Shown one piece after another: positions 8,194-36,289 of a stretch of 64,000 nucleotides of DNA. Under the pieces are notes generated by a model. That model had not been told where the DNA came from, made no database searches, and saw nothing but the letters and a program-made list of their open reading frames with translations. Position 1 is the first letter of the stretch; each line of letters opens with the position of its first letter. The stretch is from Marinoscillum furvescens DSM 4134 (lineage in GTDB: Bacteria > Bacteroidota > Bacteroidia > Cytophagales > Cyclobacteriaceae). The position numbers were made by a program, and so were the translations under genes. The stretch covers positions 64,724 to 128,723 of the forward strand of contig NZ_QREG01000002.1 in the NCBI RefSeq assembly GCF_003386095.1. Direction: 5' to 3'.

Positions 8194-8356
8194 AGGTATG
8201 AAGTGATATTTAGCATAAAAATGTGATGATACGCTAAAATAAATAGTATGCTATCCTAGCTTATAGGGTGTGGATTGTCGTTACAGAAGTAGAAAGGGCA
8301 AGAATTGATCGCACAACTGTCGGACGCTGACAGTAATGCTATTGGTCTAATTCACG
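8194..8356. other. Upstream region of the arabinofuranosidase gene
   Basis: No gene seen. It holds a small inverted repeat CTGTC-N7-GACAG at 8317-8333 and A/T-rich sequence just before the ATG at 8193 (minus strand). No convincing TAnnTTTG promoter box was found. Confidence 0.4.
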
Positions 8357-8940
8357 GAAAAACCAACGATGGTCGTTGGTTCGGTAAACGCCGTAAAACA
8401 AAAAACACTCCCAATTGCTTAGAAGTGTTTCCCTTATGAGCCCCCAGTCGGATTCTTCCGTAGGAATGCCTGCGGCAGAACCAAACGACCGGTCGTTTGG
8501 TTCGGTAAACGCCTTAAAATAAAAAAAACACTCCCAATTGCTTAGAAGTGTTTCCTTAATGAGCCCCCAGTCGGATTCTTCCGCAGGAATGCCCGTGGCA
8601 GAACCAACGATGGTCGTTGGTTCGGTAATCGTCTTAAACAAAAAAAACACTCCCAATTTCTTAGAAGTGTTTCCCTTATGAGCCCCCAGTCGGATTCTTC
8701 CACAGGAATGCCTGCGGCAGAACCAAACGACTGGTCGTTGGTTCGGTAAACGCCTTAAAACAAAAAAACACTCCCAATTGCTTAGAAGTGTTTTCCTTAT
8801 GAGCCCCCAGTCGGATTCTTCCACAGGAATGCCTGCGGCAGAACCAAACGACTGGTCGTTGGTTCGGCAAACGCCTTAAAACAAAAAAACACTCCCAATT
8901 GCTTAGAAGTGTTTTCCTTATGAGCCCCCAGTCGGATTCG
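8357..8940 (-). repeat. Tandem array of tRNA-Thr 3'-half plus terminator units
   Basis: On the plus strand the motif cactcccaatt recurs at 8406, 8529, 8648, 8769 and 8890, giving periods of 123, 119, 121 and 121 bp. Read on the minus (tRNA) strand, each unit has the 3' part of the adjacent tRNA-Thr (T-stem and acceptor 3' strand), a 22-nt insert splitting the T-loop between TTC and GAAT, then the tRNA's rho-independent terminator hairpin and T-run. The insert itself is two micro-hairpins (TGCC-gca-GGCA and TTCC-tgt-GGAA). Another inverted repeat (GAACCAACGA/TCGTTGGTTC) precedes each T-arm. Units are near-identical, with no spacers, so this is not CRISPR. An open frame across the array (8339-8824, minus) is a by-product. 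Confidence 0.9.
8883..8914 (-). terminator. Rho-independent terminator of tRNA-Thr
   Basis: On the minus strand, AACACTTC pairs with GGGAGTGTT across a loop of about 10 nt and is followed by seven T. It lies about 10 nt beyond the tRNA 3' end. Four further copies occur in the repeat array, in 8400-8800. Confidence 0.85.
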
Positions 8941-22912: not shown

Positions 22913-23515
22913 ATGAAAAGATCGTGGAACGAACATGTGGAGCTTTTTAATGGCAAGTCCACACCTCCAGCCGCTACCCTTACCAAGGCACTTGAATTAC
23001 TAAAATCACAAACTGAAAATACTAGTAAACGAGCAATAGATCTGGGATGTGGTAGTGGGAGTGATACAATGGCCTTAATTCAGCAAGGCTGGCAAGTATT
23101 AGCAATAGATCAAGAAGCAAAAATCATCCAACACCTGGTTCAGCAGCTGCCTGCGCCACTCCCCTCTCTAACTACAAGATGCACCACCTTTGAAGCACTC
23201 GAAACATTACCACCCGCTGATTTGATCAATGCGTCTTTCTCCTTACCATTTTGCAATCCCGCTCATTTTGATCAACTCTGGGATACTATTACCTCCAGTC
23301 TGGTCCAGGGCGGTTACTTTGCAGGGCACTTTTTTGGTCCTGAAGACGACTGGGCACCCAACCCAAGCATGATCTTTCACGATACTATGGCTATAGAACA
23401 GCTATTCAGGGGTTTCAGAATAGCAGCACACAAAGAAGTAAATAAAACTGGAAAAACAATTTCTGGTGACAGCAAGCACTGGCATGTCCATCACCTGGTA
23501 GCCTGTAAACTATAG
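22913..23515 (+). CDS. Class I SAM-dependent methyltransferase
   Basis: About 200 residues from ATG 22913 (MKRSWNEHVELFNG). An upstream in-frame start at 22868 would lie right behind the tRNA terminator and is less likely. Motif I is AIDLGCGSGSDTMALIQQGW, with the acidic end of beta-2 in VLAIDQEA. ADLINASFSLPFCNPAHF resembles the post-IV region of small-molecule methyltransferases. Substrate unknown. It converges with the MATE gene with a one-base gap. Confidence 0.82.
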   Translation: MKRSWNEHVELFNGKSTPPAATLTKALELLKSQTENTSKRAIDLGCGSGSDTMALIQQGWQVLAIDQEAKIIQHLVQQLPAPLPSLTTRCTTFEALETLPPADLINASFSLPFCNPAHFDQLWDTITSSLVQGGYFAGHFFGPEDDWAPNPSMIFHDTMAIEQLFRGFRIAAHKEVNKTGKTISGDSKHWHVHHLVACKL

Positions 23516-23516
23516 G

Positions 23517-24866
23517 TTAAGAAAAAGAGTAAGAAGTATAGGCCCTGGCCTCCCTGCGAAGTATCCATACTGCCAATAGCGCGTAGATAACGTTTTCCAA
23601 ACCAAGCATATAGTAGATACCAAAACTTCCCCATACTCCTGTAGCAGCCAGCAAGGCAACAAACGGCAAGAATAGTATCACCTGCCTGCCAACAGGCAAA
23701 AAGCTTGCTATTTTACTTTGGCCAACGGCCTGAAAGTATATAATAGCGCTGGAGGCCAATGGTAAAAAAGGCAATACTCCAAAGATGACTCTCACGACTG
23801 TGCGCTCTCCAGCCATCAAAATTATGTCAGGAATCAACAATCCTACGAACCAGGATGGAAATAGCAATATGGGTGTAATAAGCAAACAAGCAAAAAGAAC
23901 CCCTACACCTTGAAAGACTTTTAGCGCCTGCAAACACCTCTGCCATTCTCCTGCCCCGAAGTTTACTCCGATTACAGGTTGGAGGGGCTGCATTATGCCC
24001 AAAACTGGAACGGCAACAAAGGAAAACAGTCGATATGCAGCACTAAACACGATCAAATCATGAGCACTTCCATACCAGGTAACAAATCGGAAAACCACGA
24101 ACTGTCGAAGTACATTGGCTAGCTGAAGCAGCAAGGAAGAAACTCCAACTTTGGCCACTTCCATCATCACCTCACGATCCAGGCTTATAGCTACTTTCCC
24201 CACCGAAAACAGGGCTTTGCCACATAAAAAGTAAGCATAAGTACCAGCCGAATACACTAACATCGCAACGATACTACTCCAGGCCGCTCCCTCCACTCCC
24301 ATATTTAGCGTAGTGATAAAAAATGGAGTAAGTACAAGATTGATAGCCACAGCAACCACAGTAAACATCATAGCTTGTTTCATCTTACCCTCAGCACGTA
24401 TGAGGGCATTGGCCGATAGCCCAAAGACACTAAAAAAGACCCCACAAGCATAAGTTTCGAGGTAAGCTACCCCAAACTGCCTAACAACACCCTGAGCGCC
24501 CATCGCATCCATTATTTCTCCCGCAAAGCAGTACCCAACAGCCATCACCAACCCCGAACAAATACAGGACGAGACGATGAGGTTTGGTAAAATCTTCTCT
24601 TGAGAAGGCACATCGCCTCTACCTATGGCTCGGCTAAGCATAGATGAAAACCCCACCGCTAGCAAACCAGTAAAACTGCTCACTATCAGTGTAAACGGGA
24701 ACACCAATGACACGCCAGCAAAAGCTTCAGCACTAAGCAAGTTCCCCAGATAAACAGCGTCAACAAGGGAATTAATGGATAAGACCAACATACCAAGCAT
24801 ACCTGGTACCGAAAGACGTAAAAGGAGCCTGAAAGGAGAATCGCTCAGCAATCTTAAGTCTTTCAT
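23517..24866 (-). CDS. MATE-family multidrug/metabolite exporter
   Basis: 449 residues with about 12 hydrophobic segments in two MatE halves (about 15-180 and 235-400). PGMLGMLVLSINSLVDAVYLGNL at the N-terminus is the family signature. MATE proteins export organic compounds by Na+ or H+ antiport. It is the last gene of the collinear block that starts with the Cys/His peptide at 36173, one base after the DUF5916 gene, so it may export that pathway's product (inference). Residues PVGRQV lie on a GC palindrome (23683-23698) that looks like an inserted repeat. Confidence 0.9.
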   Translation of the reverse strand: MKDLRLLSDSPFRLLLRLSVPGMLGMLVLSINSLVDAVYLGNLLSAEAFAGVSLVFPFTLIVSSFTGLLAVGFSSMLSRAIGRGDVPSQEKILPNLIVSSCICSGLVMAVGYCFAGEIMDAMGAQGVVRQFGVAYLETYACGVFFSVFGLSANALIRAEGKMKQAMMFTVVAVAINLVLTPFFITTLNMGVEGAAWSSIVAMLVYSAGTYAYFLCGKALFSVGKVAISLDREVMMEVAKVGVSSLLLQLANVLRQFVVFRFVTWYGSAHDLIVFSAAYRLFSFVAVPVLGIMQPLQPVIGVNFGAGEWQRCLQALKVFQGVGVLFACLLITPILLFPSWFVGLLIPDIILMAGERTVVRVIFGVLPFLPLASSAIIYFQAVGQSKIASFLPVGRQVILFLPFVALLAATGVWGSFGIYYMLGLENVIYALLAVWILRREARAYTSYSFS

Positions 24867-24867
24867 C

Positions 24868-27072
24868 TTAAAATTGCTTCAGAAAGGTGATTTTACCGAT
24901 GACTTGTTGTTGGCGGTAGTTTCCTTCAAGCAGTTCAGCGTTGGTATCATTGAATACCAGATAAACGAACGATAAAGGACGGTACTCCCAACTACCTCTA
25001 ACATTCCACCTCCCTTGTTTGTCGAATGAGTTGTACTGATAAAAAGCTGACAACTGAATTCGGGGGTTCAAGGCAAATCGTGCACCAAGTGTTGTCAAAT
25101 TTGTCTTTAAGTTTTGAAATGACTCCCCCAGATCCTGAAGGTTGTTATACTCATGAGAAGCAGTAAATGCCACATGTGGTATGGGGGCATACCGAACGCC
25201 TCCAGTCACAGTCAGTCGTTTTCCATTGTAAAAGCCTCCCCAGCTTAGTTTTCCAGATATCGAAAATGACTTGGACTGATCCGTATTGTACGTGACCTGA
25301 TGTCTGGTGTAGTAATAGCTATCCTGAGCTATGGGTATGCCTAAAGGTGCAAAATTGAAATTGATGTTTTGCCATGTGGGGTAAAGCGCATACTCAAAAA
25401 AACTTCCATCTGTAAAAATCAAATAGATTGGAAACAAATATATACTCGCCTGCTGGAAGTTTCCGGGATCATTGGCGTCATGGTAATAATTAAAAAATGC
25501 TCCTGGATCAAACCTCCGAATCCACGAAATGTGTTTTGGCCTGAAAATGTAGTACCCTCCGGGGTTATGCCAGATCACATTTTTTTGGAATACAAATCCC
25601 ATATCAGGACTGTAATCTTTTGTCACAAAATTGGTGAGCCACCCAAGATAAAATCTATTGGCATTGTAACTGGCGAATACTTTACCAGCCAATCCAAGCG
25701 TATCATTTGAATTGTCACGCGAGCCTGACAGTAGATACGAAAATGTGAGCTCACTTTTGGGCCTTATCAGCCCATCCACAGTCAGTGTGGTGTTATTGCT
25801 TTGGGAGGTACCCAGCTCATCAGATGCTTCATCTAACCTGTGGGTAAGCATCACTCCTACATTATTTTCTTTAGCGTAGCTCTGCAAATACCTGCCTACT
25901 GCAAAGCTGGCCGCAGGACTATTTTCGGTAGCTGACTGATGTATATACAAACCGGCTACTGAGCGTTTGTCATCCCGCTGCGTATACCTCACCCCTGCAT
26001 CTATTTTTGCGGGCTCAGCATTGAAATCACCCTGCAAGCCAATAGTGCGGCTAAAGAACGGAATCACTGAATAATCCCCCGCTCCAGCCCATAGACCAGA
26101 GTTTTCCAGGAAAAACTGCCTTCGTTCGGGAAAGAAAATATTGAAACGCTCCAGGTTATTCACTGCCCGGTCCACGTCTGCCTGTGCAAAATCCGTGTTG
26201 AAGGTAAGATCTAGCACCGAACGGGGATTAATTGCCCATTTCACATCTCCGCCAAACTTTACATCTCCATCAGCATTAGTCTGTCCATCACTTTTTACCT
26301 GCTCTTGCTGATATAGCAAGTAAGGCTCTACACGCACATTTGCACTGGGTGCAGGTAGTTTCAGGCCTTTGAGCTGCGCGGCATAGGTCATGCGATAAGG
26401 CGAGAAAGACTGTGGAATAGCTGGAAATACTGTTTGCTCATAAGCTCTGCGCGCCATACGCGTAAATGTCACTCCCCAGGTAACCGAATCCGGATGAGCT
26501 GCTTGCTCATACCTTATAGACTTGAAGGGTATAGCAAATTCCGCAAAATATCCTGTATCGGTCTGATGAGTGCGAACACTCCAGAGCGCATTCCAATTTA
26601 CATCTGTATGGCTATCGTTGAAGTTTTGAAGGTCTCGTTGATTACCATACGGAGTGGCCTGAAAGGCTACGCAATATTGTTTCAGGTTTTGCGGATCTAA
26701 CTGAATCCCAAAAACATCATTTTCACCCCATACAAAATCTCTTCGAAGGTCTTGCACCCGAACACCGTCTTTGCCAAGAGAGTCTCTACAATACACTCCC
26801 AGATAAAGATTTTTATGATCAAACAGCAGTTTTACCTCCGTCTCAAACTGATAATCTCCGCCTTGTCTTGGTTCGATTCGGAAGAAATCACGAATTATCT
26901 GAGCGTGATTCCAAACCGGCTCACTAAGTTTACCGTCAATTTTTACAGGACTGTTGATCGGCTCTGCATAAACATTTTGTGGATTTTCTGGTGGTGAAAA
27001 ATTCTGAGCATGCTGACTTTTAGATAGGAAAGCAATGCCTAGCAACCCAAATAAAAGGAGACAATTTTTCAT
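24868..27072 (-). CDS. DUF5916 protein with CBM9-like domain, outer-membrane type
   Basis: About 734 residues from ATG 27072, which overlaps the upstream permease stop as ATGA; a GTG six bases earlier is less likely. Signal peptide to about residue 20 (SKSQ). A carbohydrate-binding/DOMON-like (CBM9-type) domain lies at about 40-235 (VKIDGKLSEPVWNHAQ, WGENDVFGIQLD). It is followed by a long beta-strand-rich DUF5916 region ending in a C-terminal aromatic strand (GKITFLKQF), consistent with an outer-membrane barrel. Function unknown. Its position between transporter genes suggests a role in handling the same ligand (inference). Confidence 0.82.
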   Translation of the reverse strand: MKNCLLLFGLLGIAFLSKSQHAQNFSPPENPQNVYAEPINSPVKIDGKLSEPVWNHAQIIRDFFRIEPRQGGDYQFETEVKLLFDHKNLYLGVYCRDSLGKDGVRVQDLRRDFVWGENDVFGIQLDPQNLKQYCVAFQATPYGNQRDLQNFNDSHTDVNWNALWSVRTHQTDTGYFAEFAIPFKSIRYEQAAHPDSVTWGVTFTRMARRAYEQTVFPAIPQSFSPYRMTYAAQLKGLKLPAPSANVRVEPYLLYQQEQVKSDGQTNADGDVKFGGDVKWAINPRSVLDLTFNTDFAQADVDRAVNNLERFNIFFPERRQFFLENSGLWAGAGDYSVIPFFSRTIGLQGDFNAEPAKIDAGVRYTQRDDKRSVAGLYIHQSATENSPAASFAVGRYLQSYAKENNVGVMLTHRLDEASDELGTSQSNNTTLTVDGLIRPKSELTFSYLLSGSRDNSNDTLGLAGKVFASYNANRFYLGWLTNFVTKDYSPDMGFVFQKNVIWHNPGGYYIFRPKHISWIRRFDPGAFFNYYHDANDPGNFQQASIYLFPIYLIFTDGSFFEYALYPTWQNINFNFAPLGIPIAQDSYYYTRHQVTYNTDQSKSFSISGKLSWGGFYNGKRLTVTGGVRYAPIPHVAFTASHEYNNLQDLGESFQNLKTNLTTLGARFALNPRIQLSAFYQYNSFDKQGRWNVRGSWEYRPLSFVYLVFNDTNAELLEGNYRQQQVIGKITFLKQF

Positions 27073-28508
27073 AAACACTCCTCTTTTTTGAATTTGACAA
27101 ACCCGATAGAAAACACCAGAATGGCCGCACAGGCTATGGTAAATATGCCTTTAAAAATAGGAAACCATTTATTACCATTTTGCACCATAGAAAAAACAGG
27201 CAGTTGCTCATAGTCTTCCCTGGAAATAGGCCTGTTTTGAAACAGACGACTAAAATAAAAGTCACTGATTTGCTGATGAAAAGAGACCAACTGGTCCTGA
27301 AAATGGAGAAACTGCCCCAGGTCTGTATCCACCACTTTCACCAAAACTTCCTGCATATAGGCCGCCGGACTAAGCCATAGATAGTTAGCCGCCCACTGCT
27401 GACGTCTGATTACCCCCTCATAATACGCATCTACTTCTTGCCGATGATGAATATCTTTTAAGGATGTAAACGCAGCGTAAGCTTTAGGCAGGAGATTTTC
27501 TTCAAGCGCACTATCACTTTTTGCAAGCTCAGGTTTGTGTTCCAAAAACTCATTGATCACGGCCAGCGCTTCCTCTTTATCATCTTCATTTTCCAGCCCC
27601 GTTCTGCGAGTCAGATCAGCCAGTGCTACACTGTTTAGCGGGTAGCGTGTAGTCACTATAACGTTTAAGACGGCAGGGACTATAATCAAAAACAACAACC
27701 AACAACCTACAGCAGCTATCGCATTAAAAGAAGAGCTTTTGCGAAAGCTGACTATGGCAAACAACAACCCAAACCAAAAGGCACAATATACGATCACACA
27801 CACCAACCAAACCAGCGCAGGCAACCAGTTTTGTGACTGCAACGGGTTTCCAGAAGTGTATAAGCCAATAATAGATAGCAAGAGACCAAGCCCTACCACA
27901 AGTGTGAAATAGCAAAGCATCCGAATCAATAGAACCTTATGAACACTCGTTGCTTGCACCTTTAAGAGCGCAAGGATGCCATGCTCCTTGTCTGAAGCAT
28001 AAAGGCCATAACCAAATGCTATAATCAGTAGTGGAAAAAGATAAACCAGCACAAAAGCCAGGTCAAAATTTCCAGTAAGTAAATTTCCAGGGTTTGCTAA
28101 CTCATTTTCAAAAAGCTGATAATACAAACTCATTGCAGTGAGCCGATAGTAATACCGATACAGGTCACGCTGGCCAATAGCCAATGCTGCAAAGTCATGA
28201 GGTGGTAAAACAGCATGATACCCATGTCTGTACCATGCATATGCAGGGCGTGATGCTACATCATGCGTTTGCTCCTGCTCCAATGTTTTCAACTCTTCCG
28301 TAAAACTGGACTTATATGCATCAAATTCGGACTGCTCCAGTTTCATCACGGCATTTATAGTATCGCGCTGATCAATTATTTCGGCTTGACCATGATAAAT
28401 AGCATACAGACCAAACAAAAACAGGACCCCCAACATGAGCAGCTGGAATCGATTACGAATGAACACTTTCCATTCGTATTGGATTATTTTTCGTGTCGCC
28501 CTATTCAT
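27069..28508 (-). CDS. ABC-2-type transporter permease with DUF3526 domain (second of pair)
   Basis: 479 residues. One N-terminal membrane helix (about 20-40), then a large extracytoplasmic loop, then about four to five helices at 140-290 and one C-terminal helix. YASDKEHGILALLKVQ resembles the cytoplasmic coupling region of NosY/ABC-2 permeases (ERETGTL-like). Starts 8 bp inside its paralogue. Together with the ATPase and first permease it forms one ABC transporter, probably an exporter or an outer-membrane-energising system. Confidence 0.82.
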   Translation of the reverse strand: MNRATRKIIQYEWKVFIRNRFQLLMLGVLFLFGLYAIYHGQAEIIDQRDTINAVMKLEQSEFDAYKSSFTEELKTLEQEQTHDVASRPAYAWYRHGYHAVLPPHDFAALAIGQRDLYRYYYRLTAMSLYYQLFENELANPGNLLTGNFDLAFVLVYLFPLLIIAFGYGLYASDKEHGILALLKVQATSVHKVLLIRMLCYFTLVVGLGLLLSIIGLYTSGNPLQSQNWLPALVWLVCVIVYCAFWFGLLFAIVSFRKSSSFNAIAAVGCWLLFLIIVPAVLNVIVTTRYPLNSVALADLTRRTGLENEDDKEEALAVINEFLEHKPELAKSDSALEENLLPKAYAAFTSLKDIHHRQEVDAYYEGVIRRQQWAANYLWLSPAAYMQEVLVKVVDTDLGQFLHFQDQLVSFHQQISDFYFSRLFQNRPISREDYEQLPVFSMVQNGNKWFPIFKGIFTIACAAILVFSIGFVKFKKEECL

Positions 28509-29937
28509 TTATTGGTTTCATTTTTCGGTTGGAATAATACACGAGCACACACAGCACTATCACCCAGGCAAGCAGCGAGATCAGTTCGAGCTTGTAGTAC
28601 TGGACCACTTGCCATACTCCCGGAGTTTGGTAGGTAAAATCTTCTATTTCATCCCACAGGTCTCGCCCTGCCTTATATTCAAAGAACTTTCCATACGTTG
28701 AATTTTGAGCCATATCATGGTTCATTCGACGCACCAGCTCCCTGCGATAGTGCTCCACCTCATTTTCAAAATGAATAAATGTGTGCAGGTCCGTACCGGC
28801 CATTGCCATAGACAAGTGTCTGATGGCCAAAAATGGGTTTAACAAACTCGCAATGCTTGCCAGGTGGTTTTGACGATAAAAAAGCTGCCGCAAACGCTCT
28901 TGATGATGGTCATAAATTCTATTTCCAAAATCCTCACCAGCCTGCATGCTGATCCCTTCGAAGTTGAAGGGAAGCTGCTGCACATCGTCTACCTGATATT
29001 CCTCCAGGTAGCGCTGTTTTAGTTTTTCCTGACGTTCAGATTTTGTAGACTTTCCGTGGAGCCCGTGCGCTTTATCTTCTGCTATGGCTGCTCTAAACTC
29101 GCGCATGGAAGGAATTTCATAAATCCTTTCACTCACATTGGCCACAGTTTTTGGCATGAGCACAGTCAGTATGATCCAGCAAGACAGCAATACCAGCAGC
29201 GCATTTCTCCCCGAAGAAGAGCGCAATGACACCCAAATACTGAGCATCAGAAAAAAGAACAGGTAAATCGTATAACTCACTATGAGTAGTATACTCCTTA
29301 GTCCCAGGTCTGTCATCTTAGCCTGAGCATCACTCAAAAATGCCATAATGATCAATCCTACCACCACGGGTAAGAGTATGCTCAAAAGCAAAAATCCATG
29401 AGCAAGCAGCTTTCCCCATGTAATTTGCTGAAACGTAACCCCCTGACTAATTAGCAGCCGGAGTGTACCCGTCTCACGCTCTTGAGTAATGGTATGAAAA
29501 CTCATAAAAATTATAAGCAGAGGCACCAGTACTTGCAGCACCAATGCGAGGCTGAGCTCTCCAAACCTGATCAAACTACTGTGGTCCTGTGCCGGACGAA
29601 ACATAAACTCATGCTGATAATGAGCTTCTAAATAAACCGAAGTACCCGTATAGGCATCCAAACCAAAATCAAACAAACTCAAAAGTGTCTTTGGCTTGAA
29701 TACATAAGTCCCATAATGTGCTGCTATGTGAGGGTGCTTGTCACCTTGCTCCAGCCACTCCTGTCTTTTCTCCTGCTGAGTCTGTACTATAGCCGAGTGC
29801 TGCTGTGCATAGACCAAATAACCTGTAACTCCCGCCACAGCTAACAGCACCCATACGATAGCACCCAGTACCAACACGCGTCGCTCTCGAAGTGCAACCA
29901 AAACCTCCTTTCTGGCAATAGTTCCGATTACAGACAT
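28501..29937 (-). CDS. ABC-2-type transporter permease with DUF3526 domain (first of pair)
   Basis: 478 residues with the same layout as the next gene. An N-terminal helix at about 22-45 is followed by an extracytoplasmic loop to about 130, then helices from 135 with the coupling sequence ITQERETGTLRLLISQG, a second long loop (about 285-440) and a last helix near 450. Its ATG overlaps the ATPase stop by one base (TAATG). The pair probably arose by duplication. Confidence 0.85.
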   Translation of the reverse strand: MSVIGTIARKEVLVALRERRVLVLGAIVWVLLAVAGVTGYLVYAQQHSAIVQTQQEKRQEWLEQGDKHPHIAAHYGTYVFKPKTLLSLFDFGLDAYTGTSVYLEAHYQHEFMFRPAQDHSSLIRFGELSLALVLQVLVPLLIIFMSFHTITQERETGTLRLLISQGVTFQQITWGKLLAHGFLLLSILLPVVVGLIIMAFLSDAQAKMTDLGLRSILLIVSYTIYLFFFLMLSIWVSLRSSSGRNALLVLLSCWIILTVLMPKTVANVSERIYEIPSMREFRAAIAEDKAHGLHGKSTKSERQEKLKQRYLEEYQVDDVQQLPFNFEGISMQAGEDFGNRIYDHHQERLRQLFYRQNHLASIASLLNPFLAIRHLSMAMAGTDLHTFIHFENEVEHYRRELVRRMNHDMAQNSTYGKFFEYKAGRDLWDEIEDFTYQTPGVWQVVQYYKLELISLLAWVIVLCVLVYYSNRKMKPINE

Positions 29938-30638
29938 TAGTTGTGCATGTGTTTGAGGTATAACTTCTCCAAATCCTGGAAGCTCACTTCGTCAGATTCA
30001 AACTGCTCGATCAACGTACCTTCTTTCATGATGCCAATATGTGTGCCGGTGTCTTTGGCCCGAAACAAGTCATGAGTAGCCATAAGTGTGGCCACACCTT
30101 TATTTTTGAGCTCTAGTAGCAGCTCAGAAAACTCATTACTCGCTTTTGGGTCGAGTCCGGAAGTAGGCTCATCGAGCAAAAGAACCCTGGCATCTCGCGC
30201 ACGCGCCAAAGCTATTCCCACTTTTTGGCGCATGCCTTTAGAATACTTGCTCACCCGCTGATGAATAAAATCCCGCTGCAAGCCTGACTGAATGAGTAAA
30301 TCCTCTAACTGGTCTTTGGTATGCGTACGCCCTCCGAGTCCACAAAAGAAATCGAGGTTTTCAATCCCAGTCAGATTTGGATACAGCTTCAGGTTTTCAG
30401 GAATATAGGACAGCAGTTGCCGGGTATCCTGTGCATGTTTCGACACGTCCATAGACTGAATTTTCGCAGTACCTGAGCTAGGTGCTATAAAATTCAGAAA
30501 CAAGTTGATAGTAGTGGATTTTCCAGCGCCATTCGCACCAAGCAAACAAAAAATCTCCCCTTCCTTAACCGAAAGATTGAGCCCTTTCAAGGCAGTAAAA
30601 TTTCCGTAGCTTTTTGTAAGATCTGTAGCTTCGAGCAT
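29937..30638 (-). CDS. ABC transporter ATP-binding protein
   Basis: 233 residues. Walker A GANGAGKST at 34-42; signature-like YSKGMRQKVGIALA near 130; Walker B VLLLDEPTSGLDP near 152; switch His in MATHD near 188. It is of the CcmA/NosF/drug-export type that pairs with ABC-2 permeases. It has no peptidase domain, so it does not itself cleave the Gly-Gly leader. Located 11 bp after the lipoprotein gene and coupled to the two permeases. Confidence 0.95.
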   Translation of the reverse strand: MLEATDLTKSYGNFTALKGLNLSVKEGEIFCLLGANGAGKSTTINLFLNFIAPSSGTAKIQSMDVSKHAQDTRQLLSYIPENLKLYPNLTGIENLDFFCGLGGRTHTKDQLEDLLIQSGLQRDFIHQRVSKYSKGMRQKVGIALARARDARVLLLDEPTSGLDPKASNEFSELLLELKNKGVATLMATHDLFRAKDTGTHIGIMKEGTLIEQFESDEVSFQDLEKLYLKHMHN

Positions 30639-30649
30639 AGCCTTATGTA

Positions 30650-32107
30650 TTAGTAAACCTGTACCAGTCCAGTTACATATCCACTAGTGCTGGTGGTCTT
30701 TTTGGTCACATCCCCAGTGGAAAGTGAATAGCTATAAAGTGCATCTTCATCACTACCCGCTATTGGAAAAAATACCTCATCATCAGATACTTGCACAAAG
30801 AAAAGTGTCCGCGAACCAGCAAAGGTATTGGGCAGTGCAGCATCTAAGGCACCTTGATCTGTAGAGGTGGTAAGATCAAGCTTTCGATAGCTAAATGAAG
30901 GCTTATCACCATCGAAACCGAACCAGTTGTCATCATTTTCGGACAATGCCGTAAAAGCTACTCCACCGATAAGGTAAAGGCCGAAACAGGATCCGCCTAC
31001 CTGATCGGTGAGGTTGAAAAAATAATCAGGATCAAACGCTGTTTCTCCCGCATTGATTCTCAGTATACCACTGGGCTTTCCGCTAAATAGTCCAGATGCC
31101 TGTATGTAGATATCTCCATTAGCATCACTTGCCATGATGGATGACGGCAATGTGCCAAACAAGGTGGCTGTACGATCATCAGTGATTACCTTCTGCAAGG
31201 TATTAGTTTGCAGGTCCACTACCGCCACTTTAGCTTCCCCACTACTACCAAAATCATTGAGTGCGATAAAAAGTGTCTGGTCACGAATAATCATGTCCGA
31301 ATAGAACAGTCCATCGCCAGCTTCCGAAAGGTCAATTTCTCCTGTGATTCGCATGTCTGCAGGGCTAAACTGAACAGCCCGAGCCAGACCTCCACCTACG
31401 GTGGCATATCCCGTTTGCTCATCTACTATCAGCACTGAGGAAAATGAATTGGCTCCGGGCACAATTATTTCCTGAGTGAGTTCTGCTTCCCCTGCACTAT
31501 TGAACTCGTACTTACCCATGGTAGCAGGAGCTCCAAACCCGGCCGTATACATAGCCTTTCCGTCTGAAAACAAAGCCGCATACTGAGCCAATTCTGTGCT
31601 ATTACTGTTACTTACAGTTTCAGAGTTGATATCTACTACCCCATTGAGAAAAGTAGTAGTGACGTCACCCGCACCCGACACCAGAGCCATACCAAAGGAA
31701 ACAGGCAAAAAGACTTCCACCTCAGCGTCCAGGCTGGATTCATTTCCCAGCTCATCAGTAACAGTAAGTGTAATGGTTTGATAGCCTGACGTAGCTGATG
31801 AAGGCTCATAACCAACCAGAACTTCTCCACTTGTAGCTCCCAAAATATCGTCGGAATTATCTATAGTGACTTCTCCTGCACTAGCGGTCACTTCCAGGTC
31901 TGCTATGCCTCCAGGTACTGCAACCGTAAACGACACTTCCAGGTGCTCACCACCTCTCACCGCCAACTCACCAGCAACATCGATGACAGGAGCGTCGGGA
32001 TCGGGACCATCATCTTCCTGACAGGAGGCCAGTACCAGGCATAGTGAAACGAACAGAGACAACAAGATTCTCCCCGAATTGAAAAAATTGAGCATTGGCT
32101 TTTTCAT
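30650..32107 (-). CDS. Surface lipoprotein with Ig-like and probable beta-propeller domains (DUF4374/XusB-like)
   Basis: 485 residues. Lipoprotein signal ending LVLASC (Cys29), then QEDDG, an acidic surface-export-type signal. Residues about 38-130 form an Ig-like beta-sandwich; the remaining 350 residues show blade-like repeats (YAALFSDGKAMYTAGFG, SVLIVDEQTGYATVGGG, IRDQTLFIALND, TGLVQVY) like DUF4374 propeller lipoproteins. Known relatives such as XusB of Bacteroides bind ferric enterobactin next to a TonB receptor. Here it lies 18 bp after a TonB-dependent receptor, so a ligand-capturing partner is likely. Family assignment is by resemblance only. Confidence 0.65.
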   Translation of the reverse strand: MKKPMLNFFNSGRILLSLFVSLCLVLASCQEDDGPDPDAPVIDVAGELAVRGGEHLEVSFTVAVPGGIADLEVTASAGEVTIDNSDDILGATSGEVLVGYEPSSATSGYQTITLTVTDELGNESSLDAEVEVFLPVSFGMALVSGAGDVTTTFLNGVVDINSETVSNSNSTELAQYAALFSDGKAMYTAGFGAPATMGKYEFNSAGEAELTQEIIVPGANSFSSVLIVDEQTGYATVGGGLARAVQFSPADMRITGEIDLSEAGDGLFYSDMIIRDQTLFIALNDFGSSGEAKVAVVDLQTNTLQKVITDDRTATLFGTLPSSIMASDANGDIYIQASGLFSGKPSGILRINAGETAFDPDYFFNLTDQVGGSCFGLYLIGGVAFTALSENDDNWFGFDGDKPSFSYRKLDLTTSTDQGALDAALPNTFAGSRTLFFVQVSDDEVFFPIAGSDEDALYSYSLSTGDVTKKTTSTSGYVTGLVQVY

Positions 32108-32125
32108 AATTGAACGATTGAATTA

Positions 32126-34495
32126 TTAAGGTTTTGTGATATGATATTTTACTTTGACGTGAAACGACCTACCTGGCTTTTGTACTCGAAAGTTGTCGTA
32201 AGCCAACACATCAAAAAGATTCTGAACTTCCAATGATAGCGTGAGCTGATCTGCTGCTCCTGTGTACGCCAAACCGATATGCTGCACCCATTGGCTTGGC
32301 ACTGTTAGCTTATCCTCCTTTCGGCCGTCTATTTCCCAGTAGCGGAAAAATTCCTCTACATAATTAACTGACCACCAGGCCTGTAACTTATCATGGCTCC
32401 GAAACAAGTCATCAAAACGAGATTGCACCTCTCCATGACCAAAGAGATAGGGTCTGTTGGGCAACCGGGCTCCCAAATACCTATCGCTGCTCACCCCGGC
32501 ACTGGCTTTCTCTGATTGATTTCTAATATCCTGGTAGGTCATGCTGGTGCTTACTGAGAGCCATTCAAACGGTGTGAAACTCAACTGACTTTCCACCCCA
32601 GCAATTTTGACACGAAGTAGGTTTTCATACTTACTCAGTACCGGTGGCGGTACCGCTTGTAGTATGATGATATCTCTAACCTTACGGTAAAATCCGTTTA
32701 ACTCTACGCTCCAAAGATTCCTTTTATAGCGCCCACCAACATTTACATTGTGACTTGTTTCTGGCTTCAATGCCGGATTAGCATTGATAGCTGAGCTAAA
32801 ATCTCCTAGTGACTCTACCCTACCAGGCATCCTGGTGGCGTATTCATAGGATGCTTTTGTCAGTAGGTATCTGCTTGCGTTCCACTTGACCAACTGGCTT
32901 ATCCCAGGCTGAAACCTCTCCTGAGCTATTACCGAAGGTTCGTCATTTTCTATGGCAAACCCTTCTGACCGATAATGATAGGCCTTTACCGCTGACGCAG
33001 AAGTCAATTGCCCTTTAAAGAACTTCTGCTCTAAACTCAGGCCGCTTACCAGTTTTTCGATACGCACAGGCAGCTTGAAATAATCCTCACCATAAAAAGT
33101 CGCTGCTATAGGGTCTGTTCCCTTTCTATTAAACCGGCTCGCCATGGCATTGAATACCACCTTAGAAGTTGGAGATAATTTGTAAGTTAAGTTGACACGA
33201 CTGGCTATATTCTCGCCATTATACTGTAGGTCGTTTTGCGACGTGGTGATCTCGCCACCGTAGGATTTGGTCCCGATTACCTTCCCTTGCCAGTCGTAGA
33301 TATTACTGGTAGTATCTATAAAAGCTGTGCGAATCTTGTTTAACCCCAGGTATATACTTACATCTAACCTATCTATCAGCTCAGCCTTTTCATATTGGAT
33401 AGCCGAACTATAACTGCTCGCCAGATTTAAGGCCTTCCCATAGGGTTGGCGCATTTCAAAATTATGTTGGATCTCATCGTATAGCCCCGCTGCTACAAAA
33501 CTGACCTTCACCTCATCTGCCCACTTTTTATTGAGCAGGCCCAACTCTCCCTTTATCAAATGATTTCGAAAACGGTCGTGAAATTTGGTAGCCGAAATGA
33601 TTTCTGGGTTTCCAAAGTCATTAATTATTTTTACTTCATCGAGTCGATAGTCGTTCTCCGAGGAAGCAAAGTAAGTGCTCACCGCCAATCTCACTCCAGA
33701 ATCCCATCGTTTGGCAGCACTAAGGGTGGTTTGCCAGGTATTAAAAGAGCTATGGGCAGCTGTAACTTCTATAAAATCTTGAAATTCTTTTCGTGTTACA
33801 ATGTTTATGGCTCCACCAAGTGCATCGGAGCCAAGTGATACAGGTACGGCCCCTTTATAGACCTCCATACGTTCGAGGTGGTTTACAGGCAGCATGGCCA
33901 AAGATGGTCCAAACCCTAGCTCATCCACTGGAAACAAAAGATCCATAGGAATGCCATCCACAAACATTTTAACCTGATTGCCTGTGAGGCCCTGAATAGA
34001 CACCTCAGTATCATTCCCCATGCCTCCGCTTTGTCTGACACGTACACCTGGCACAGAATTGAGTAAATCGGGGGCATTGACAGAGCGACTGTGCAGCGCT
34101 TTGGCATCAATCAACGAAATGGATGCAACACTTTCTTTCAGCTCTGCATTGATAGATTTTCCAGAAACAGTGACTGTACGCAGCTCAGTAGGCGCTTCAT
34201 GCAAAACAACTCGAGTGGACATACTTTCTCCAGGCTTTAGGTTCACAGCTTGTACATAAGCCTTGTACCCCAAGAAGCTCACCTGTAGTAGATATTCCCC
34301 CGGCTGTATGTTGGTAAATTCAAAAAAACCATCATTATCGGAAGTGGTCGCTTCATCAGACTGCAACTGAACAAACGCTCCGGGCACGACCTCTCCTGTT
34401 TCATCAAGCACTTGGCCAGCTAGTGACGAAGACTGACTATACCCCCAGTGAGAGGTGATGATTAAAAGAAAGATGGTTGGGATTCTTGCTTTCAT
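32126..34495 (-). CDS. TonB-dependent outer-membrane receptor
   Basis: 789 residues: signal peptide to about 20, carboxypeptidase-regulatory-like domain at 25-105 (LAGQVLDETGEVVPGAFV), plug at about 115-225 (APDLLNSVPGVRVRQSGG, VKMFVDGIPMDLLFP, LERMEVYKGAVPVSLGSDALGGAINIVT), then the barrel. Its size and plug match siderophore, metallophore or vitamin receptors rather than SusC, and no SusD follows. Two TGCAA-N5-TTGCA palindromes sit in its promoter, the same as before the peptide gene at 36173. A probable -7 box TATACTTG (minus strand, one mismatch) lies between the palindromes. Confidence 0.93.
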   Translation of the reverse strand: MKARIPTIFLLIITSHWGYSQSSSLAGQVLDETGEVVPGAFVQLQSDEATTSDNDGFFEFTNIQPGEYLLQVSFLGYKAYVQAVNLKPGESMSTRVVLHEAPTELRTVTVSGKSINAELKESVASISLIDAKALHSRSVNAPDLLNSVPGVRVRQSGGMGNDTEVSIQGLTGNQVKMFVDGIPMDLLFPVDELGFGPSLAMLPVNHLERMEVYKGAVPVSLGSDALGGAINIVTRKEFQDFIEVTAAHSSFNTWQTTLSAAKRWDSGVRLAVSTYFASSENDYRLDEVKIINDFGNPEIISATKFHDRFRNHLIKGELGLLNKKWADEVKVSFVAAGLYDEIQHNFEMRQPYGKALNLASSYSSAIQYEKAELIDRLDVSIYLGLNKIRTAFIDTTSNIYDWQGKVIGTKSYGGEITTSQNDLQYNGENIASRVNLTYKLSPTSKVVFNAMASRFNRKGTDPIAATFYGEDYFKLPVRIEKLVSGLSLEQKFFKGQLTSASAVKAYHYRSEGFAIENDEPSVIAQERFQPGISQLVKWNASRYLLTKASYEYATRMPGRVESLGDFSSAINANPALKPETSHNVNVGGRYKRNLWSVELNGFYRKVRDIIILQAVPPPVLSKYENLLRVKIAGVESQLSFTPFEWLSVSTSMTYQDIRNQSEKASAGVSSDRYLGARLPNRPYLFGHGEVQSRFDDLFRSHDKLQAWWSVNYVEEFFRYWEIDGRKEDKLTVPSQWVQHIGLAYTGAADQLTLSLEVQNLFDVLAYDNFRVQKPGRSFHVKVKYHITKP

Positions 34496-34504
34496 TCTCT
34501 TTTA

Positions 34505-34519
34505 TGCAACTTGATTGCA
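34505..34519. promoter_or_regulatory. Palindromic operator copy 1 (TGCAA-N5-TTGCA)
   Basis: TGCAA CTTGA TTGCA, a perfect 5-5-5 inverted repeat ending 10 bp upstream of the receptor ATG (34495, minus strand). Centre-to-centre distance to copy 2 is 36 bp. Confidence 0.7.
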
Positions 34520-34540: not shown

Positions 34541-34555
34541 TGCAACATAATTGCA
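34541..34555. promoter_or_regulatory. Palindromic operator copy 2 (TGCAA-N5-TTGCA)
   Basis: TGCAA CATAA TTGCA. On the minus strand its TTG could also serve as the -33 element, 17 bp before TATACTTG, so a bound protein would block the receptor promoter. Confidence 0.7.
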
Positions 34556-34613: not shown

Positions 34614-35528
34614 TCAGAGTTTCAATTCTTGTATCAACCCTTCGGCTTGCAGTTCTTCCAGGACCTTCAGTTGTGGATCAGAAAGATGAGAATCAGTAAG
34701 CATACCATCGGCTTTTTTCCAAAGCTCAGCAGCGGCAGCAGTCAGCCTATACCCATCCTTATTACCATTGAGCAAAAACATGTCTCCATTTTGCTTTAGC
34801 AGCTGACTCACTTGCTGATTGCGGACGAAGCATTTTGCAGATTCCTGAAGTGGAACCACTTTGCGTTCTTCATTGTACAGCAGGTAGTTGTACGGCTTTA
34901 AGAGCAGAATCTTCTTTTCTTCGAAGCCTGCGAGTTCAAACACCTGTACATCCGTTTCCAGCTGTTCCCGTTTTAAATACGAGCAGGCCACAATTTTTAC
35001 CGGTGTGGGCTCTGGGGAGTGATTCACCACTGTAGCTATTTTCCCCTCTGGCGAGGTATGAATGTCTTTGAGGCTCACATTTTCTACAAAGAAGAAATCA
35101 TCCTGGGCGGTTTTGGAATGGCGTACCTCCCCACCATTGTAGACCTCTGACACCAGCGTATACCTGCCCAACGGAGCATCATCGGGCAAGGTGTAAGGGA
35201 AATAATAATGTCGCCCAGACTGTATGTTTTGTAGAATACCTGCCAGCTTTTCAGGTGAGTGCTGACCACTTAGGTATTCTGCAATGATCAGTAAAGGAAG
35301 GTTCTTATTAAGGTACTTTAGTTGATTTGATGGTTTATCAGGAGCGTTGGCAGGTGTAGGTATGCCCAATACATGTCCTTCGAAAAGCATGGTGACATGC
35401 CCAGTGGGAGATTTGACACCAATACGCACCCATGGGCATATGTGCACATCCGAGAGATGCGATATATTAAAATTCCAGTGAATCGTAACCGTCTGCCCAG
35501 GCAGTGCACGTTTGGGAAAAATACTCAT
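34614..35528 (-). CDS. Protein with C-terminal PqqD-like RiPP recognition element
   Basis: 304 residues, no signal peptide. The N-terminal 200 residues are beta-rich with no recognised family (PGQTVTIHWNFN, WVRIGVKSPTGHVTMLFEG, DAPLGRYTLVSEVYNGG), perhaps an Ig- or macroglobulin-like sandwich. Residues about 232-301 resemble PqqD-type RiPP recognition elements: NGDMFLLN, then GYRLTAAAAELWKKADGMLTD, then a final helix VLEELQAEGLI. Such elements bind leader peptides and bring them to modifying enzymes. It starts 2 bp after the WH-motif protein, which starts 1 bp after the small peptide. The resemblance is by eye and needs a profile check. Confidence 0.6.
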   Translation of the reverse strand: MSIFPKRALPGQTVTIHWNFNISHLSDVHICPWVRIGVKSPTGHVTMLFEGHVLGIPTPANAPDKPSNQLKYLNKNLPLLIIAEYLSGQHSPEKLAGILQNIQSGRHYYFPYTLPDDAPLGRYTLVSEVYNGGEVRHSKTAQDDFFFVENVSLKDIHTSPEGKIATVVNHSPEPTPVKIVACSYLKREQLETDVQVFELAGFEEKKILLLKPYNYLLYNEERKVVPLQESAKCFVRNQQVSQLLKQNGDMFLLNGNKDGYRLTAAAAELWKKADGMLTDSHLSDPQLKVLEELQAEGLIQELKL

Positions 35529-35530
35529 GG

Positions 35531-36061
35531 CTACTTCCTCAATGCTTTAATTCGCTCTTTACTGTATTTCTCAGGGTATTCCTGAAACCATTTTTTCACT
35601 GTCTGTTCGCCCAAATGGTCATAGGTTATTGAAATCAATACTTCTAGTTTCTTCAGGTAATTTTGCCGTGCTGTATCAGCATCCACGGCTAATTGCTTTT
35701 TCCTCTCTTGTTTTTCTGCCTTACTAGCAGGAATGTGATGAAAATATCGCTGAAAATACCGCTCACTAAATTCATGATACTGGGGAGTGAATAAGATCAT
35801 GTTGTGCCACATTTCATCGATAATGAGCAGATCATCTGGAATGAAAGTCCCCGGAATCTGACTGATATAGATAAATTTTAAGGTCTCCTGCATGATTTCC
35901 TGGGCCTCACTTTCATTCATCGCATACATGTCAGTGAAACGCGACAGCATGTCCTCATTTTCGTAACTCAACAAATCTTCTAATTGGTTGGGATCTGGCT
36001 GCATCATAGCTGATAGATTATGAATAGCGGCAACACTTGAGGTGCTGCCGCTCAAAAACAT
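35531..36061 (-). CDS. Small protein with WH...FHH motif, candidate peptide-modifying enzyme
   Basis: 176 residues from ATG 36061 (MFLSGSTSSV), 1 bp after the peptide stop; the frame continues upstream over the peptide gene but the ATG there is less plausible. Predicted helical. The central block DEMWHNMILFTPQYHEF, followed by FHHIP, places Trp85, His86, His96, His108 and His109 as possible metal ligands. From memory it recalls bacterial members of the glycine-rich-domain-protein-like (DUF1399) group. The function of that group is not known to me. A role in modifying the neighbouring Cys/His peptide is inferred only from context. Confidence 0.5.
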   Translation of the reverse strand: MFLSGSTSSVAAIHNLSAMMQPDPNQLEDLLSYENEDMLSRFTDMYAMNESEAQEIMQETLKFIYISQIPGTFIPDDLLIIDEMWHNMILFTPQYHEFSERYFQRYFHHIPASKAEKQERKKQLAVDADTARQNYLKKLEVLISITYDHLGEQTVKKWFQEYPEKYSKERIKALRK

Positions 36062-36062
36062 A

Positions 36063-36173
36063 TTAAAGGGTGTTAGTGCAGTGACCACAGTTACTGCAAT
36101 GTGAACCACCTACCGCACGCTGTGCTTTGTCAGCAAGAATTTGATTGATGAGGACTTCTTTGTTGGTTTTCAT
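36063..36173 (-). CDS. Putative RiPP precursor peptide, Cys/His-rich core
   Basis: 36 residues from ATG 36173 to TAA at 36063. The leader (residues 1-23, MKTNKEVLINQILADKAQ then RAVGG) is charged and ends in Gly-Gly. The core SHCSNCGHCTNTL has three Cys in CxxCxxC spacing and two His. This leader/core layout is typical of precursors cleaved after GG. The gene is first of a collinear block that includes an RRE-bearing protein, is 1 bp from the next gene, and has a good promoter overlapping a palindromic operator. No peptidase is encoded nearby. Alternatives: a small metal-binding peptide that is not processed. Confidence 0.72.
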   Translation of the reverse strand: MKTNKEVLINQILADKAQRAVGGSHCSNCGHCTNTL

Positions 36174-36208
36174 AATTGATTTGAATTAAAATGTATGCCA
36201 ACACTTGT

Positions 36209-36240
36209 AAAAGGTAATTGGCTTCACCTTACTATTGCAA
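36209..36240 (-). promoter_or_regulatory. Promoter of the peptide operon
   Basis: On the minus strand: TTG (36240-36238), a 21-bp spacer, TACCTTTT (36216-36209), a one-mismatch fit to TAnnTTTG. The -33 TTG lies inside palindrome copy 3. The expected start near 36202 gives a leader of about 30 nt. Confidence 0.55.
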
Positions 36241-36250
36241 CAGTGTTGCA
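36236..36250. promoter_or_regulatory. Palindromic operator copy 3 (TGCAA-N5-TTGCA)
   Basis: TGCAA CAGTG TTGCA; the arms extend to TGCAAC-AGT-GTTGCA. It overlaps the -33 element of the peptide promoter, as expected for a repressor site. Confidence 0.7.
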
Positions 36251-36274: not shown

Positions 36275-36289
36275 TGCAACTATATTGCA
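36275..36289. promoter_or_regulatory. Palindromic operator copy 4 (TGCAA-N5-TTGCA)
   Basis: TGCAA CTATA TTGCA, within a longer repeat AATGCAA-N5-TTGCATT. Centre is 39 bp from that of copy 3, upstream of the peptide promoter. Confidence 0.7.

Follow-up and report, generated by a model that had tools for sequence, protein, structure and literature searches.

A conserved Cys/His-rich peptide gene downstream of Zur-type palindromes in Marinoscillum furvescens, a candidate structural gene for a ribosomal metallophore

The window analyzed here, a 64,000-nucleotide stretch of contig NZ_QREG01000002.1 of Marinoscillum furvescens DSM 4134, carries a 36-residue open reading frame that is a genuine, conserved coding gene, and on balance we favor the view that it is the structural gene of a ribosomal metallophore, zinc being the likeliest metal, which is served by export and uptake systems of its own. 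A secreted zinc-scavenging peptide is probable because the operon combines an apparent zinc-starvation switch with genes for likely maturation proteins, exporters and outer-membrane import. More tentatively, and as something possible rather than probable, the peptide could be the first gene-encoded zincophore and the first member of a new Bacteroidota RiPP class, matured by two proteins that we call WH and P3 together with a methyltransferase, exported, re-imported in an XusAB-like manner and placed under Zur control. If true, a zinc scavenger made by the ribosome would bring the zincophore and ribosomal-metallophore fields together, and a TBDT-DUF4374-DUF3526 transport set in marine Bacteroidota would acquire a function; a demonstration of maturation would make the locus a new RiPP class.

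A conserved peptide gene with an invariant core

36063..36173, minus strand: precursor-like peptide gene (orthologues at 14 other loci; codon constraint in the core)

Read from 36173 to 36063, the frame encodes 36 amino acids and a stop, MKTNKEVLINQILADKAQRAVGGSHCSNCGHCTNTL, with potential ligands C26, C29 and C32 along with H25 and H31 in the metal-ligand-type core HCSNCGHC. Loci were sought using as query the 304-aa protein P3 (P0003), encoded two genes 3' of the peptide. This search gave 12 loci, chiefly in Aquimarina and one in Flavivirga, and the peptide occupies the same place in all of them. Further independent loci came from a whole-genome search, which located one in a genome of the window's order (G584), and from a plasmid search, which located one on pAT2 of Aureibacter tunicatorum. 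The C-terminal part, ...GGSHCSNCGHCTNTL, is thus present at 15 loci, namely the window, the Aquimarina loci, one decayed Flavivirga copy, G584 and pAT2. The gene table of pAT2, known to be incomplete, lists the neighbors of the peptide and omits the peptide itself, illustrating how a key gene can escape annotation.

The octapeptide HCSNCGHC is identical letter for letter in 14 of the 14 other loci, pAT2 included, which is far more than chance would give. In a codon comparison of 14 loci its codons are invariant at positions 1 and 2 and variable at position 3 in eight of eight cases, the pattern of a gene-encoded short precursor under amino-acid-level selection. The first-pass annotation, which had proposed a real short frame with a Cys/His-rich C-terminal segment and a precursor-like character, is supported on these points, and the peptide lies in a conserved operon with transporters and a linked methyltransferase. 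It had named stops, frameshifts and free third-position change in homologues as signs of a spurious frame; the third-position changes in the core are synonymous only, and no stop or frameshift was found in the peptide frame of any homologue, including the Flavivirga copy, whose downstream genes look broken.

Other parts of that annotation do not hold. The double glycine of the proposed leader is not conserved, the corresponding residues being SLGTHC at one locus (L011), AGSVHC in the Flavivirga copy (L013) and LGLGHC in pAT2, and the absence of GG from these three places the peptide outside the double-glycine (C39-processed) leader class. The expected conserved leader and variable core are reversed, the core being invariant and the N-terminal leader half conserved yet more variable. 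Multiple precursors in other strains had been named as further support; a search of the peptide's own genome recovered no second copy. The HCSNCGHC pattern is absent from 394 other genomes of the phylum. The distribution is patchy, comprising Aquimarina, a single remnant in Flavivirga, a plasmid and, within the window's order, two genomes, and it suggests horizontal transfer. The methanogen Cys-rich peptide family TIGR04165 was considered and rejected, as the peptide scores 17.3 bits, far below the cut-off of 60.

Zur-type palindromes and the metal concerned

36275..36289, no strand: Zur-type palindrome 1, TGCAACTATATTGCA, centered at -108
36236..36250, no strand: Zur-type palindrome 2, TGCAACAGTGTTGCA, centered at -69
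34541..34555, no strand: Zur-type palindrome 5' of the TBDT gene (motif match)
34505..34519, no strand: Zur-type palindrome 5' of the TBDT gene (motif match)

The first-pass annotation credited the gene with a good promoter; the candidate, TTG-N20-TAAATATG, is a weak match to the Bacteroidota-type -33/-7 pattern (5 of 6 scored positions) and is equaled in 23.5% of shuffles. The striking feature 5' of the gene, which went unmentioned, is a pair of palindromes about 108 and 69 nucleotides ahead of the ATG, and these Zur-type boxes are the most specific clue to function. The palindrome core, TGCAAYNNNRTTGCA, lies 5' of the peptide gene in 15 of 15 loci. In 13 relatives its positions agree with those in the window, although one or two bases of the motif differ in some of them, and pAT2 has a single copy at -87.

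Genome-wide pattern searches, with the reversed motif as control, showed the palindrome to be rare and the control count to be close to zero; in the peptide's own genome the palindrome occurs at seven places compared with none for the control. Four of the seven are inside the peptide operon. Another precedes a gene whose product, scoring slightly under the cut-off of the model, resembles the zinc metallochaperone GTPase ZigA, and one lies between a ZnuD-like TBDT gene, which has a Fur-family gene ahead of it, and a DUF4625 lipoprotein gene. The seventh exact copy (G000 C1:174257; L021:5001) stands ahead of a thioredoxin-reductase-like gene beside nitrate-type transport genes, with no evident zinc link. 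In G584, palindromes separate an ABC/FolE/Fur-family group from a MerC/COG0523 group; one precedes a COG0523 gene in Aquimarina longa, and another the cluster-linked Fur-family gene in a different Aquimarina, while several other Aquimarina copies precede genes without an evident zinc link. Across the window's order, 6 of 19 ZigA genes, 5 of which belong to genomes other than the peptide's own, carry an exact copy of the box no more than 330 bp 5' of the P-loop codons, a level never equaled in 200 shuffles each, and the remaining 13 have none.

Zur regulons classically contain ZigA/COG0523 and folE-type genes, TBDT genes and zur (PMC6103462). Here one operator is common to the peptide operon and to zinc-homeostasis genes. 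Because the boxes accompany ZigA-like, FolE/Fur-family, MerC and ZnuD/DUF4625-type genes, the palindrome is strongly predicted to be a Zur box. We found no Zur box described for Bacteroidota in the literature searched, and TGCAAYNNNRTTGCA is a candidate zinc-starvation operator for this phylum. On pAT2 (L179:3860-13693), two Zur-type boxes precede a TBDT - HmuY - CobN - ExbB - DUF2149 group adjoining the peptide cluster, which suggests that another system for metal uptake is controlled in the same way.

It is conceivable, although we regard it as unlikely, that the product is a metallophore or other metal-handling RiPP for copper, cobalt, nickel or iron, and that the palindrome is the box of a Fur-family regulator whose metal specificity differs or is mixed. 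Copper is the metal of the known ribosomal metallophores, Cu(I) is bound well by Cys/His cores, and the box-bearing pAT2 group encodes, besides its TBDT and HmuY, a CobN-like protein. Fur-family models do not discriminate, the cluster-linked Fur-family proteins scoring no better with the Zur model than with the Fur and PerR models. Against these points, the box-bearing genes elsewhere form a zinc set (ZigA-like, FolE, ZnuD-like).

A zincophore would have precedents in its regulation. Zincophore clusters under Zur control are established (PMC6103462), and none of those named is ribosomal (PMC6103462, PMC10957091). Pseudopaline, coelibactin and EDDS share with the present cluster Zur-type control and the linkage of chelator biosynthesis to an exporter and, in the Gram-negative case, a TBDT; they are opine-type, non-ribosomal or small-molecule compounds, whereas the peptide product would be gene-encoded (PMC6103462). 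ZepA of Anabaena is likewise a Zur-controlled extracellular polypeptide for zinc acquisition, but it is an exoprotein, and the peptide described here is of a short leader-core type (PMC10957091). In the open-access literature we found no ribosomal zincophore, and the ribosomal metallophores found there are copper-binding.

Operon, transport and putative maturation proteins

35531..36007, minus strand: WH protein (158 aa, IDEMWHN...YFHH), putative maturation protein (homologue alignment, structure model)
34614..35528, minus strand: P3 protein (304 aa), Ig-like domains with a PqqD/RRE-like C-terminus, putative maturation partner (structure model, profiles)
32126..34495, minus strand: TonB-dependent receptor (TBDT), the closest model being that of the siderophore receptor MxcH (score under the cut-off)
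30650..32107, minus strand: DUF4374-like lipoprotein, XusB-like (22.5 bits, cut-off 25; pAT2 homologue annotated DUF4374)
29937..30638, minus strand: ABC transporter ATPase (profile matches, relatives)
28501..29937, minus strand: DUF3526 ABC permease 1 (profile matches, relatives)
27069..28508, minus strand: DUF3526 ABC permease 2 (profile matches, relatives)
24868..27078, minus strand: CBM9/DUF5916 outer-membrane-type protein, without a counterpart in the pAT2 cluster
23517..24866, minus strand: MATE exporter, without a counterpart in the pAT2 cluster
22913..23515, plus strand: SAM-dependent methyltransferase, linked in relatives (start codon from alignment)

The peptide gene heads the operon, and the genes 3' of it follow on the same strand in the order listed, from WH to MATE, and this order is kept in Aquimarina and G584, with identities to the window of about 42–79%. 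In pAT2 it is largely kept, without DUF5916 and MATE and with a SAM methyltransferase after the permeases on the same strand. In the window a homologous methyltransferase gene converges on MATE, as it does in G584 and in each of the three Aquimarina genomes examined to that distance; in all four of these relatives it has a Fur-family gene as neighbor. In Flavivirga algicola (L013:9353-11377) the cluster is decaying: the frames of WH and P3 are disrupted and the transport genes gone, while the peptide, the boxes and the Fur-family gene are still intact. An AstE/AspA-type amidohydrolase-like gene (L027:373-1452, L055:5140-6234) flanks the G584 cluster and, in one Aquimarina, neighbors the Fur-family gene; it is absent from the window. 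Elsewhere in the window, an open frame of imperfect repeats at 8339-8824 (EESDWGLIRETLLSNWECF...) has the look of an array of DNA repeats and not of a gene.

From their gene position, WH and P3 are the likeliest candidates for maturation proteins. The first-pass annotation placed the next start codon 1 bp after the peptide stop, and an ATG at 36061 does open a frame, but the homologue alignment begins at residues matching window positions 36004-36007. The WH model is all-helical (pLDDT 81) with the invariant motifs DEMWHN, YH and YFHH.P, and a structure search with it gave no PDB match; more WH homologues occur in two genomes (G324, G279) in unrelated surroundings. P3 is modeled as Ig-like sandwiches, partly at low confidence, with only generic Ig-type structural matches. 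The strand and helix order of its C-terminal domain resembles PqqD/RRE, and the sequence matches there are weak (PqqD 13.3 bits against 23.4; hhalign probability 2%, not significant). P3 homologues were found in one other genome among 241 of the window's order, and the Flavobacterium-type family to which G324 belongs, searched in 399 genomes, gave marginal partial matches only. Neither WH nor P3 matches any characterized family. No known RiPP-modifying enzyme was found in the peptide cluster, nor was an MNIO (DUF692), a C39 peptidase or another dedicated leader peptidase; C39 was also not found in G584 (77% complete). If the metallophore reading is true, a cluster whose one recognized modifying enzyme is the methyltransferase would point to a new chemistry of RiPP maturation.

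This gene content can be compared with two kinds of known system. Copper RiPP metallophores (methanobactins and the MNIO-made bufferins/captophorins) also have a short, metal-linked ribosomal precursor with a Cys-containing segment and two-protein maturation partners encoded beside it. They use MNIO enzymes, in contrast to the present cluster, which is set apart by its lack of an MNIO, its apparent zinc-starvation control, dedicated TBDT/DUF4374 uptake and conserved core (PMC13097082, PMC12452194). In Bacteroides, the TBDT XusA and the DUF4374 protein XusB import metal-siderophore complexes, shown for iron siderophores. The pairing of a TBDT with a DUF4374 surface-type lipoprotein is the same here, although XusAB pirates iron xenosiderophores, and the window has zinc-type regulation and an adjacent peptide gene (PMC13142918). 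The nearness of our TBDT to siderophore receptors and its DUF4374 partner gene count for the metallophore reading; against it count the failure to find a known RiPP-modifying enzyme or dedicated leader peptidase in the cluster, the weak RRE-like match of P3, the unconserved GG and the possibility that the ABC/DUF3526 and MATE exporters serve another substrate.

Two other roles for the peptide bear on these partner genes. We judge it quite unlikely that the peptide is an unmodified zinc chaperone or buffer kept in the cell or periplasm and is no metallophore. The core resembles a zinc-ribbon knuckle, and the maturation enzyme and leader peptidase are unproven; however, the operon is given over to outer-membrane import and inner-membrane export, and we would expect a cytosolic zinc sponge induced at zinc shortage to be counterproductive. 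Still less credence can be given to an antimicrobial or signaling RiPP made under zinc starvation, with ABC/DUF3526 as export or immunity and the TBDT serving some other ligand. A peptide with an ABC exporter and a methyltransferase is a common bacteriocin layout, and the methyltransferase matches the RiPP methyltransferase model weakly (37.9 bits, cut-off 175), yet the core is invariant across genera, unlike arms-race peptides, and the TBDT and DUF4374 genes are kept in the same operon.

The mechanism that we infer for a secreted zincophore comprises zinc binding, modification, leader removal, secretion and re-uptake of the peptide. Scarcity of zinc would cause a Zur-type repressor of the Fur family to come off the palindromes, and the operon would be expressed. 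The N-terminal part of the peptide would act as a leader read by WH and P3, and probably also by the linked methyltransferase, and these proteins would carry out the processing or modification of HCSNCGHC at the C-terminal end. The product would be exported by the ABC/DUF3526 and/or MATE transporters, its Cys/His ligands would capture Zn(II), and the zinc-laden peptide would be taken back up by the DUF4374 lipoprotein and TonB receptor, in the way that XusAB handles ferric siderophores.

RNA elements flanking the peptide gene

36026..36052, minus strand: intercistronic RNA hairpin, possible partial terminator (covariation)
36185..36232, minus strand: pseudoknot-like 5'UTR element, diverged relative of DUF805b RNA, RF02914 (Rfam scores relatives, not the window copy)

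The gap of about 55 nt between the peptide stop and the conserved start of WH holds a covarying hairpin that is found in every locus. Over 12 loci, 99.3% of cells are paired and 8 of 12 pairs have changed on both sides; none of 500 shuffles equals this result, and slid versions collapse. A U-tract accompanies the hairpin in Aquimarina. The hairpin may be a partial terminator that raises the peptide:enzyme ratio, by which peptide mRNA would exceed the mRNA of the downstream genes.

A short Cys-rich frame, then a covarying hairpin and, in Aquimarina, a U-tract, is also the arrangement of a regulatory leader peptide, in which translation of the Cys-rich stretch would control the hairpin and the genes behind it. 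We consider such an attenuator very improbable, given that the N-terminal half is also conserved as protein (K5, E6, I9 and I12 are invariant in a ten-row alignment) and that the Cys codons, which include TGT as well as TGC, do not form runs.

A conserved, pseudoknot-like 5'UTR element of about 40 nt is situated between the boxes and the peptide ATG. Its relatives score above the RF02914 gathering cut-off of 35.6 bits in pAT2 (53.4) and in two Aquimarina loci (L129, 40.2; L130, 42.4) and below it in two other loci (L132, 31.6; L131, 26.3), and the window copy, unscored by Rfam, has diverged below detection. A covariance model of the element finds matches 5' of many other genes, those of other RiPP-like precursors included. 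The possibility of a cluster-specific riboswitch was accordingly rejected; the element is an already catalogued RNA family, the general DUF805b family, which precedes many unrelated genes and is unspecific to the peptide system. At other Aquimarina loci (L139:1500-1710, L142, L150, L157), DUF805b-type RNA lies about 55–65 nt 5' of the start codons of RiPP-like precursors (ILDLKGATQLSKNEQQTIKAG..., LNKKTVSHLSNQELQKVNGG...). Such elements occur as tandem copies in A. longa, and they precede genes for membrane and secreted proteins too.
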